From NCBI GenBank assembly GCA_022822325.1, contig JAJEBW010000036.1, forward strand, positions 90,296 through 154,295: 64,000 bases of DNA. The letters are read 5' to 3'. The translations under genes and the position numbers were made by a program. Numbering within the stretch: position 1 is the stretch's first letter; each line of letters begins with the position of its first letter. Below the pieces are notes generated by a model. It saw only the letters and a program-made list of their open reading frames with translations, ran no database searches and had not been told where the DNA came from. The stretch comes from Gemmatimonadota bacterium (GTDB lineage: Bacteria; Gemmatimonadota; Gemmatimonadetes; Longimicrobiales; Gaopeijiaceae). Positions 6,986 through 63,968 of this stretch are shown here, in pieces.

Positions 6986-8287
6986 TCAGTGGTCGCGCGA
7001 AGGAGCGGCCCGGGAGATGCGCCTCACCACCACCGTCTCGACCTCGAACTCGTCGCTCTCGACGAAGGCCGCGAGTCCCCCCGGACCGAACGCGGTCGGC
7101 ATCGGCGTTCCGGCGGGGTAGCTGCCCAGGTAGCGGCCGTCGGGGGTCAGCAGGTCGATTGGGCCCGTCGCGGCCGGATCGGCGCCGTGCCGCTGCACCC
7201 AGATCGTCCCGTCGGGGCTCGTCTGGATGTCGCGGATCACGGGAAGCTCATGGTAGCACTGGGAAAGCTCCACCCTCCCGCGCAGCATGGCCAGCATGCG
7301 GTCGCCCAGGCGGAGCCGGTCGTCGATTCTGCGGAGATCCGCATCCATCTCGGCAAGATTGCGTTCCCGTTCCGCCGCGCAGGCGCGATCGGTCATGGGT
7401 TGGGGGAAGAGCGGCCGCGCGAGGATGCGCTCCACTTCGCCCTGCGCGTCCGCCACGCCGATCCGGTACGCCGACGAATCGGAGAAGACCACGCCGCCGC
7501 CGGGGAGCGCACCGGCCAGCAATGGCGGAACCAGCAACGTTTCGGGACGCATCGCGTTGGGCGTCGGACGGGCCACGGGCTCCAGCTCCGGTTCCCAGGC
7601 CATCGCCAAGGTGTCGGTTTGGACCCGCTCGCCCTTCAGCGACAGGCGCACGACCGGGCGTCCGCTCACCCGGTTTTCGTAGCCGCCCGCCAGCGCCACC
7701 GCGATCGACATCGACATCACCGGACCATTGGGGATCAGCGCGTCGCCCGCCGCGGTCAGGTCGAGATCGTCCGGCATGATGGTGGCATTGCCCGGCAGGG
7801 AAACCGTGCGCTCGAATTCGCCGTCCCCGCCGAAGATGAGAAAGCCGTTGCGAGCCACATCGAAAACCACCACCCGCTCGTCCTCCCTGGCCCCGATCCA
7901 CCGGGCGTCCTGGAATTCGCCGGGGCCCTCGCCCGCGCGGCCGTATTCGCGCAGCAGACCGCCACCCGGATCCACCACGACCACCCGCGACGCCAGCCGG
8001 TCGAGGATGTGCAGATTGCCGGTTCCATCGAAGGCCAGCCCGGCGATCTCCCCGAACTGCTCCCAATCGGCGCCGCTGATCCCTCCGATCCGGACGAGCT
8101 CGGTGAAGTCGGCAGCCAGCCAACGGTCCTCGGCGGGCAGCTCGATCACCTCCTGGGCGGCCGCGGGCCCCGCAGGCGGCAACAGGAGAAGGACGGACAC
8201 GGGCGCCCAGCCCAACAACGCTACCGCAGGAGCCGCGCGCGACGGCCCGGTGCACTCGCGCATGCGAAGACTCGCACTACCGGTCAT
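6986..8287 (-). CDS. 6-bladed beta-propeller exported protein (paralogue 1 of 3)
   Basis: 433 residues from ATG 8287. The signal peptide ends PAAAQ (about residue 48) and is followed by [12 protein letters not shown], a start shared almost exactly by the next two genes. NHL-like blades follow ([28 protein letters not shown]), then the shared markers [25 protein letters not shown] and [11 protein letters not shown]. The family is the 6-bladed beta-propeller group common in Bacteroidota and Gemmatimonadota; the function is unknown, probably ligand binding at the cell surface or periplasm. ATG 8287 overlaps the upstream paralogue's stop by 11 bp, suggesting translational coupling; ATG 8263 is an alternative start. 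No strong ribosome-binding site is visible for either. Confidence 0.85.
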
Positions 8288-61900: not shown

Positions 61901-62147
61901 GAATCCGATGGGTGCCCGCCGGAACGTCCGCCATGACGAAGCGGCCCCCCTCCCGGGACAGGACCACCCTTCCGAGCGCGGCCAGTTCGATGCGTACGCC
62001 CGCCAACGGACGGGACGTAGCGGCGTCGAGCACCGCGCCCGCAAGAGTGCCGGTCTCCTGTGCGGCGAGATTCCCCGGAAGTGAGCCGCCAGCCAGAAGT
62101 CCAAAGACGAAAACGGCAACGGCAAAAGAGTGGAGCCATCGTCGCAT
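58953..62147 (-). CDS. TonB-dependent outer-membrane receptor
   Basis: 1064 residues from ATG 62147, with GAAGGG 8 nt upstream. Signal peptide ends GNLAAQE. CarboxypepD_reg domain (GTLAGAVLDAATSRPLAGVRIEL), plug domain (ESPVELPYAVSVAGRRTLAEQ, ASVNLRGLGASRTLVLLNGRRQVYIPL, ALDRIEVVREGASAVYGSDAVTGVVNFLTR), then a large barrel ending KLSLTYRMGR. Cys pairs in extracellular loops (CEGFGG...CRFD, CPVPGDHGCP, CPDGKGTGTC) suggest disulfide-stabilised loops. The plug and barrel type matches siderophore/vitamin/oligopeptide receptors; no substrate can be named. The end lacks the classical C-terminal Phe (ends MGR). No TonB/ExbBD genes are nearby. Confidence 0.9.
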   Translation of the reverse strand: MRRWLHSFAVAVFVFGLLAGGSLPGNLAAQETGTLAGAVLDAATSRPLAGVRIELAALGRVVLSREGGRFVMADVPAGTHRIQVEMLGYVTLSRSVTVTAGDAVVLELRMEPEALRLHELVVTGTAFEESPVELPYAVSVAGRRTLAEQGSPQAFDFFRNLTAMHGILGARQGWYSARPPGLVSETVASVNLRGLGASRTLVLLNGRRQVYIPLRLAGGRFVDVNAFPSIALDRIEVVREGASAVYGSDAVTGVVNFLTRDDFEGFEISGSHEYFSGAGETNVGAIWGSELGERAHAVVSAEAFVTRELTVEERHWTLGGFVPGGGGWSYIGNPGAFLFPRLTGNETAEEFVAALTDAHYGGWGGVFVDPLCEGFGGFLEPDETCRFDYGPFDNLAEASRQVRAFAELNGGIGDGTSYHLEALWAEASTPNWRTTPSYLPISLYDGTQLVEPGHPGRQVFCRSYGQHAGFSGTEACLEDNWYFFGRMVGNSGPPRTLRRDSRTRRIAGSIERELEVFGGRGAALELAASFARSTGNANLPGEYLHRKFLAFRGFGGPDCGVGVVVDRSSPSGMALGPLGGKVAGQGDCMYYNPFSTAHQHSVQPGARYRNQANPDYTPGLENPRELIDWINDEVNLDNKADLFVVDALLKGALSEQAEYAAGYQFRRLGVGAEPNDPGNLEVTPCPVPGDHGCPDRFGPFHLTGGFFPYEDAQTVHRFFAESRLELGHRIHGQIAANYEFHGSVRSFDPKVALRVELAEAIALRGSVQTTFRTPSVDDLNEELNTALEYLSAAGVYKGIDTYGDKDLVPERAFTYNVGATFQLPRFRASVDYWDYDFENVIDVLPYEGIASLYAMGGSRREAVRSFVTCPDGKGTGTCDIQSVERIEVRFVNWPGVRMSGIDFHASTRIPRGEAIMSLELDGTYGREFTVRALDVDGVEVLGAHDAAGKLNWANPIAPPLPQWKSSFSAGYHVGDYSVVNHLNAVSGYTNEAFVGTRYEDIDRWVTWDVSLLRRTPGKLDMGLSVLNALNADPPLVRWEASYDGFTHSPKGRRIKLSLTYRMGR

Positions 62148-62197
62148 CGAAGTCGCCCTTCCTTCAAGAGGGTGCGCGTGGCAGTCGGACGGCCCGA

Positions 62198-62341
62198 ATG
62201 CGGCCGGACCCGCGCGCGAAGCTGGTGAGACGTACACAGAAGCTGAATTGGCTTGCCCGCGAGCGCGAGATGGGCTACGCGGAGTGGCGTGAAGACCCGA
62301 TGGTGTTTCTGAAGCGCGCGCGCCTATGGGACGGCGGCTGA
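62198..62341 (+). CDS. Small hypothetical ORF
   Basis: 47 residues from ATG 62198: MRPDPRAKLVRRTQKLNWLA then REREMGYAEWREDPMVFLKRARLWDGG. Codon choice is plausible and the sequence is compact and charged, but no family is recognised and no ribosome-binding site is clear. It lies between the divergent TonB-receptor start and the tRNA array. Confidence 0.3.
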   Translation: MRPDPRAKLVRRTQKLNWLAREREMGYAEWREDPMVFLKRARLWDGG

Positions 62342-62400
62342 CGCGGCAGTGGCCGGTGTGCAGCGGCCAGCGGGCGTGCCCGTACGCTCGCTCACGCTCA

Positions 62401-62546
62401 CGGACGGGGTGGGATTGACCTCCGGGCGGCTCCGCCGTCCTCGGTCGTCTCCGACCCTCGGACCTCACGGCCCGAGCGTCTCCGGCTCGACGCAGTTCCG
62501 TATCCCCTCCCGTACGTTCGCTCACGCTCACGGACGGGGTGGGATT
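62401..62546 (-). repeat. tRNA-Ser-linked cassette 1 with 16-bp tRNA-end duplication
   Basis: CGGACGGGGTGGGATT (the 3' end of tRNA-Ser(GGA) on the minus strand) occurs at 62531-62546 within the tRNA and again at 62401-62416. Between them is a 114-bp sequence nearly identical to the one in cassette 2. Further left, 62379-62400 repeats the cassette's last ~20 bp, so a second, truncated unit is present. Confidence 0.88.
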
Positions 62547-62615
62547 CGAACCCACGCGGGCAAGATGCCCACACGATTTCCAGTCGTGCGCCTTAAGCCA
62601 CTCGGCCACCCGTCC
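62531..62615 (-). tRNA. tRNA-Ser (GGA)
   Basis: 85-nt class II tRNA: acceptor GGACGGG/CCCGTCC, anticodon loop CTGGAAA, long variable arm, discriminator G. Confidence 0.95.
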
Positions 62616-62633
62616 TTCTCTGAATCCGGCTAA

Positions 62634-62707
62634 TCGGGGCGCCCGGATTCGAACCGGGGACCTCTGCGACCCGAACGCAGCGCTCTACCGGACTGAGCCA
62701 CGCCCCG
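62634..62707 (-). tRNA. tRNA-Pro (CGG)
   Basis: 74-nt cloverleaf: acceptor CGGGGCG/CGCCCCG, anticodon loop TTCGGGT, discriminator A. The unpaired-looking C1-G72 start is typical of tRNA-Pro. Confidence 0.95.
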
Positions 62708-62768
62708 TTGGAACTGAGTCTCCCATGCCGCATGGATTCACCAAACCGGCCGACAGAGGTGTTCCGAG

Positions 62769-62853
62769 CGGAGGCGGAGGGACTCGAACCCCCAAGTGCT
62801 CGACGCACGCCGCATTTCGAGTGCGGTGCCTTACCAATTAGGACTACGCCTCC
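62769..62853 (-). tRNA. tRNA-Ser (CGA)
   Basis: 85-nt class II tRNA: acceptor GGAGGCG/CGCCTCC, anticodon loop CTCGAAA, long variable arm. It lacks the downstream cassette found after the two other serine tRNAs. Confidence 0.94.
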
Positions 62854-62947
62854 AGTATCTGAATCCGATTGTGGGACGTGACAGGGGTTTACACATCCCC
62901 AAAAAATGCAAGATGTTGTGTGACAATATATTGCAATCATCAATGAG

Positions 62948-63094
62948 CGGAGGGAGTGGGATTGACCTCCGGGCGGCTCCGCCGTCCTCGGTCGTCTCCG
63001 ACCCTCGGACCTGACGGCCCGAGCGTCTCCGGCTCGACGCAGTTCCGTATCCCCTTCCCACGCGTTCGCTTACGCTCACGGAGGGAGTGGGATT
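62948..63094 (-). repeat. tRNA-Ser-linked cassette 2 with 16-bp tRNA-end duplication
   Basis: CGGAGGGAGTGGGATT (3' end of tRNA-Ser(GCT)) at 63079-63094 and again at 62948-62963, around a 115-bp sequence that matches cassette 1 with about seven differences. Just left of it is an AT-rich stretch (62880-62945) with hairpin GGGGTTTACACATCCCC and an A run. Confidence 0.88.
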
Positions 63095-63163
63095 CGAACC
63101 CACGTGGTCCTTTGGACCAACGCCTTAGCAGGGCGCCGCTTTTAGCCGCTCAGCCATCCCTCC
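63079..63163 (-). tRNA. tRNA-Ser (GCT)
   Basis: 85-nt class II tRNA: acceptor GGAGGGA/TCCCTCC, anticodon loop CTGCTAA, long variable arm. Confidence 0.95.
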
Positions 63164-63164
63164 A

Positions 63165-63909: not shown

Positions 63910-63968
63910 GACCAGCTCCTGCAACAGCGGCAGTCCGTGGATGACGCGATGCATCCACGGACTGCCAG

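Follow-up and report, generated by a model that had tools for sequence, protein, structure and literature searches.

The window, by which we mean the whole 64,000-nucleotide stretch of DNA analysed here, lies at a contig end in a 3.48-Mb draft genome. A run of tRNA genes on its minus strand holds tRNA-Ser(GGA) and tRNA-Ser(GCT), each with a unit behind it (Table 1). The original prediction, that each of the two genes is followed by a shared cassette and a repeat of its own last 16 bp, was borne out by the annotation: the final 16 bp of the units, AATCCCACCCCGTCCG or AATCCCACTCCCTCCG, are the end of their own tRNA. A truncated third unit does lie left of the first cassette, and tRNA-Ser(CGA) lacks a cassette, as had also been claimed; of the 23 genomes of the host genus, 16 yielded a Ser(CGA) end, and none of these 16 ends carried an own-tail copy or the core motif. 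When the whole draft genome was searched for the cassette and its tRNA neighbours were recorded, as had been proposed, 4/4 complete units lay directly behind a tRNA-Ser gene and on the same strand (GGA, GCT and a tandem pair at TGA, the latter on a different contig from the window). This placement, together with the covarying stems described below, rules out a plain spacer.

Table 1. Features of the tRNA-Ser locus in the window.
Feature	Position	Strand	Remarks
Further truncated unit	62379..62400	-	first 22 bp of a unit
Unit 1	62401..62530	-	s1 + A* + core + A', 130 bp
A' of unit 1	62401..62416	-	direct 16-bp copy of the tRNA-Ser(GGA) 3' end
Core of unit 1	62417..62494	-	hairpins P2, P3, P4
A* of unit 1	62495..62516	-	degenerate inverted copy of the tRNA-Ser(GGA) 3' end
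Spacer s1 of unit 1	62517..62530	-	TGAGCGTGAGCGAA
tRNA-Ser(GGA)	62531..62615	-	ARAGORN, Rfam; 3' end (A) = GGTTCGAATCCCACCCCGTCCG
tRNA-Ser(CGA)	62768..62853	-	without unit
Unit 2	62948..63078	-	131 bp
A' of unit 2	62948..62963	-	direct 16-bp copy of the tRNA-Ser(GCT) 3' end
Core of unit 2	62964..63041	-	99% identical to the core of unit 1
A* of unit 2	63042..63064	-	
tRNA-Ser(GCT)	63079..63163 (Rfam); 63078-63164 (ARAGORN)	-	

Behind the tRNA, a unit consists of a spacer s1 (TGAGCGTNAGCGA), the segment A*, a core of ~75 nt and the segment A'. A' is a direct copy of the local tRNA 3' end, and A* is the reverse complement of that end from the T-loop to the acceptor. This inverted local copy between tRNA and core, absent from the earlier description of the locus, was recognised through relatives. 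Units 1 and 2 are 94% identical overall, and their A* segments are 82% identical. To compare units across genomes we collected 33 complete ones and aligned 31 of them (alignment A1), leaving out L057_gga, which has the same sequence as L028_gga, and the internally deleted L078_gga; alignment A2, of 28 units, also leaves out L063, L082 and L094.

In the consensus structure, A* pairs with A or A' and the core hairpins covary. A* has two potential partners: A', on the far side of the core, and the end of the tRNA itself, on the far side of s1. With the structure closed by A*:A', changes on both sides were counted in 58 cells, compared with 17.2 in shuffles (0/500), these counts not being independent because the sequences are related. 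The covariation fits A*:A as well as A*:A' and so does not choose between the two pairings. The off-pairs in P1', P2, P3, P3b and P4 comprised 44 G.U and 3 A.C, and those in the pairing of A* with the tRNA 23 G.U and 0 A.C. A strand-neutral process would yield G.U and A.C alike; being G.U (44) rather than A.C (3), the off-pairs point to folding on the tRNA-sense strand, with an excess of G.U that could partly come from a transcription-linked C-to-T bias. Within the core, a conserved C-G pair stands beside G.A and A.G oppositions (28 of 31 units), which recall the tandem GA motif reported for RtT RNA (PMC7657543).

The ends of a unit follow its tRNA, and the cores follow the genome. At both isoacceptor-variable acceptor positions A' matched the local tRNA in all 31 aligned units, and A* complemented both positions in 24 of them. 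Over 14 bases A' was exact in 21/31, and the other 10 differed in the last four bases only. Core identity between different tRNA loci within a genome averaged 0.858 (17 pairs), as against 0.761 with permuted genome labels, and none of 5000 permutations reached the observed value.

Using a covariance model, we found units in 37 of the 146 genomes of the host order, all 37 in the host family; 19 of the 23 genomes of the host genus bore them. Under stricter filters the model gave no unit outside the host family among these 146 genomes, BLAST matches outside the family were weak (E 0.003-0.009), and the named contigs bearing a unit belonged to Gemmatimonadota / Longimicrobiales MAGs. In other genera of the family the core lies behind tRNA-Cys, tRNA-Pro(CGG), tRNA-Arg(CCG), tRNA-Ser(CGA) and the other Ser genes. 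When 24 units were scored, the tail copy agreed best with the closest upstream tRNA in 23, of which 20 matched at all 13 bases; this is a weak test for the several pieces that hold one or two tRNA genes only. Of the 29 model matches, 5, with no upstream tRNA in the piece, were left unscored (L233, L240 twice, L244 and L249).

A census of the 53 Ser(GGA/GCT/TGA) ends in the 23 genus genomes revealed a core with A' at 31, a core without a readable A' at 5 (contig end, garbled or truncated), A' only at 2, an s1 scar only at 4 and nothing at 11. Because the unit is absent at these 11 sites, it is dispensable. In G022 and G010, tRNA-Ser(GCT) is followed by s1 and then by the next tRNA. That same next tRNA also stands after A' and s1 at the end of a GCT-type unit in G008; the tRNA-Ser(GCT) of G008 was not seen because its contig begins inside the unit. 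Window positions 62007-62700, with the Ser(GGA) unit and its surroundings, share 97% identity over 694 bp with the relative G006 (L057), and the Ser(GCT) units of the two genomes are strongly different (74% to the GGA query).

The original prediction had likened the arrangement to the rtT repeats of the E. coli tyrT operon, and this likeness holds, since the E. coli units behind tRNA-Tyr and tRNA-Pro are built from the same succession of parts, among them an inverted T-arm. E. coli K-12 follows the plan at tRNA-Tyr, where the CCA of A' is exactly the end point of the annotated rttR RNA; in strain CKJ_1000_3.1 the A* and A' of the RtT unit behind tRNA-Pro are of Pro type. RtT matches were present in 4695 of 5426 E. 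coli genomes, at 1 to 14 places each, and strain C10 has six tandem units after its second tRNA-Tyr. The proK core of E. coli starts by repeating the 5' half of the T-arm and can be read as an insertion into the T-loop of a second T-arm. Between tRNA and unit at proK, and likewise at some other loci, we noticed by eye a terminator-like hairpin, which makes read-through there doubtful. A Salmonella comparison lists rtT RNA among variable-number repeats, with lengths of 175 or 122 bp (PMC2658671), and another study describes the E. coli rtT RNA as released from the tRNA transcript and linked to the stringent response (PMC4986893).

Gemmatimonadota units and RtT (RF00391) have in common tandem units of varying number behind a tRNA gene, an inverted T-arm, a hairpin core and a final copy of the tRNA's 3' end. 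By contrast, the window units lie behind tRNA-Ser instead of tRNA-Tyr or -Pro, lack an encoded CCA and have an A* that reaches the acceptor strand too. RF00391 gave no match in the window, remaining below its gathering threshold, and in 150 genomes of the phylum it gave none above the cut-off and three sub-threshold matches; in L250, where a sub-threshold match lies, no tRNA was recognised in the first 400 bases. No known Rfam RNA matched inside the units of the window. The window units are RtT-like by anatomy and not a member of RF00391 by model.

We also scanned the named genomes for an inverted T-arm located behind the T-arm of a tRNA, a pattern blind to units that have no inverted T-arm, and obtained 92 stretches that reduced to 80 loci. 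Among loci not of the Gemmatimonadota type that had enough sequence, 29 of 44 carried an exact 14-base copy of their own tRNA end 60-270 nt downstream and 15 did not. These 44 had been chosen solely by the inverted T-arm downstream of the tRNA T-arm. Considering that such copies were found in 0/41 upstream controls and in 1/748 comparisons with another locus's tRNA end, they are not due to chance. The Gemmatimonadota-type loci in the scan had an exact tail copy in 13 of 24 cases, and decayed, garbled or cut tails explain many of the others. The plan was present in Verrucomicrobia, Planctomycetota, Desulfosporosinus and other Clostridia, Cohnella and Chromatiales, and also at tRNA-His of Gastranaerophilales and tRNA-Arg of haloarchaea. 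The tail copies start in the T-loop, and in Clostridia A* covers the T-arm only. A convergent tRNA gene as the source of the inverted T-arm was rejected, since no opposite-strand tRNA overlaps the 74 tRNA-anchored matches; a few other pattern matches that overlap only an opposite-strand tRNA were left out. Two gammaproteobacterial units scored below threshold with Rfam RtT at the expected position (29.8 and 26.4 bits, E 0.069 and 0.46). In the literature surveyed (including PMC8092127, PMC4986893, PMC7657543 and PMC2658671), which was available in part and covered subscription journals thinly, rtT appears in gammaproteobacteria only and we found no description of the plan outside RtT.

To account for these observations, we favor, at a rough probability of 0.55, the reading that the units are tRNA trailers of rtT anatomy that are transcribed, fold on themselves and change by recombination between copies of the tRNA end. 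Each would be a hairpin core closed by the inverted (A*) and direct (A') copies of the local tRNA 3' end and is probably transcribed together with its tRNA. Pairing of A* with A' would close the RNA into a mimic of the acceptor/T-stem and would keep A* off the tRNA's own 3' end. It may also give a tRNA-like 3' terminus, in agreement with the annotated end of E. coli rttR at the CCA of A'; the mismatch between the last four bases of A' and the tRNA in 10/31 units speaks against tRNA-like 3' processing there. Exchange between direct repeats would keep A' tRNA-like, and A* would follow either through selection for pairing or through template switching. Finally, recombination between the copies of the tRNA end would multiply, trim and delete units. 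The tandem arrays and the variation in unit number support unequal duplication of such a unit, one of the two origins offered in the original prediction.

Behind the window units there is possibly a much wider class of tRNA-tail elements that has been little noticed so far. We put forward only tentatively, as an idea that may well prove wrong, that rtT, the Gemmatimonadota units and the look-alikes in Verrucomicrobia, Planctomycetota, Clostridia, Patescibacteria and haloarchaea form one tRNA-parasitic class, which would spread between tRNA genes and take on the end of each host tRNA as it does so. Its members would have a structured core in the T-loop of a duplicated tRNA tail, and the preceding inverted T-arm would be complementary to the uninterrupted site. 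If true, this class would represent a novel kind of genetic element, one that copies ends. If the anatomy recurs across bacteria and archaea with local ends, a general class of element or RNA resides in tRNA trailers, and E. coli K-12, which already carries rtT, would allow its spread, processing and cost to be tested. For annotation, a repeat of a tRNA end found behind the gene is not necessarily the mark of a genomic island.

The other origin offered in the original prediction, integration into a tRNA 3' end, is not supported in the form of ordinary site-specific integration, because two 99%-identical cores have different, locally matching ends on both sides; single-crossover integration of a circle with an att core of its own would not result in local ends around a shared core. 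We regard as rather unlikely a modified version in which the units are mobile DNA: spacer, A* and core would be inserted by a recombinase or transposase at the 3' terminus of the tRNA, with a target-site duplication comprising 16-20 bp of its end, and RNA folding would be secondary. Such mobility is in keeping with a core common to tRNA-Ser, -Cys, -Pro and -Arg that carries local tail copies, with empty sites and spacer scars, with tail copies that begin in the T-loop and with the terminator-like hairpins ahead of some units. However, a target duplication accounts for A' and not for the local inverted A*, and the wobble asymmetry of the sense strand would need single-stranded DNA of that strand. 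Moreover, none of the integrase places listed came within 20 kb of an occupied site. G021 has a trio of adjacent tyrosine recombinase genes (contig 1, 834.6-837.0 kb) downstream of an empty tRNA-Ser(GGA), at a distance of ~4.5-7 kb, and this trio has an equal-scoring copy at 3116.6-3119.0 kb. Casposons and other elements duplicate the tRNA 3' end on insertion, and the units share with casposon-type insertions a direct repeat of that end; they differ in being 130 bp long without coding capacity and in having an inverted local copy. Cas1 was detected in only 4 of the 23 genus genomes and not found in 19, and units are present without it, for example in G001, G006 and G015. On this count Cas1-type insertion was rejected, and Cas1 seems not to be required. 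We also dropped the idea that A* is a tRNA primer-binding site for reverse transcription, as A* lacks a CCA complement and, in Clostridia, covers nothing but the T-arm.

A neutral repeat, with neither function nor mobility, would arise if template switching at the T-arm palindrome produced the inverted copy, slippage the tandem copies and gene conversion the alike ends and cores. Such a process would be expected to give tandem arrays, decayed distal pieces and cores that resemble one another within a genome, but the core covaries, the plan recurs in distant phyla, and 44 G.U against 3 A.C off-pairs is not the equality that a strand-neutral process should give; we therefore consider it improbable. 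More improbable still, to the point of being a very long shot, is an integron-like cassette site, in which single-stranded DNA folded by A* and A' would serve as a recombination site, with genes captured between units. Integron attC arrays are made of imperfect palindromes of roughly 60-140 bp, and in this respect, as palindromes in arrays, the units are alike. In L067 (relative G015), moreover, a 347-codon ORF (842-1885) nearly fills the gap between the end of a unit at 825 and the start of a second unit piece at 1890, and L078 has a further unit ~7 kb downstream. Against this, A* is missing from the second piece in L067, most of the units seen have no second unit with an ORF between, and, in contrast to attC, the units are anchored on tRNA and have ORFs between them at one locus family only; no attC boxes were recognised in the units by eye. 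The reading as transcribed, self-folding trailers remains the one that we prefer.

Several minor observations were made at unit-bearing loci. Unit-type hairpins can garble assemblies: in L084, L085, L151 and L200, units pass into long stretches of G or C or into N, as if assembly or sequencing had failed at the hairpins. L128 and L130, from a record titled Deltaproteobacteria (RHO3_bin_65), have Gemmatimonadota-type units behind tRNA-Ser, reflecting either misbinning or transfer. In L234 (1054-1578, minus strand) and L236 (1-391, plus strand), tRNA-Arg(CCG) with its trailer unit is immediately preceded by an RNase P RNA gene. In the window, an inverted repeat, GCAGTCCGTGGAT...ATCCACGGACTGC, occupies positions 63930-63966 within a tRNA spacer, and similar pieces occur in tRNA spacers of L064 and L082. 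In L078, the distant unit (8068-8198) is nearly complete, has a GGA-type end and lies on the same strand as tRNA-Ser(GGA), with several ORFs in between, one of them transposase-like by eye. The ORF of L067 starts 16 bp past the unit and ends 4 bp before the unit fragment, in the manner of a cargo gene, and the same start is found in L079 (G002).
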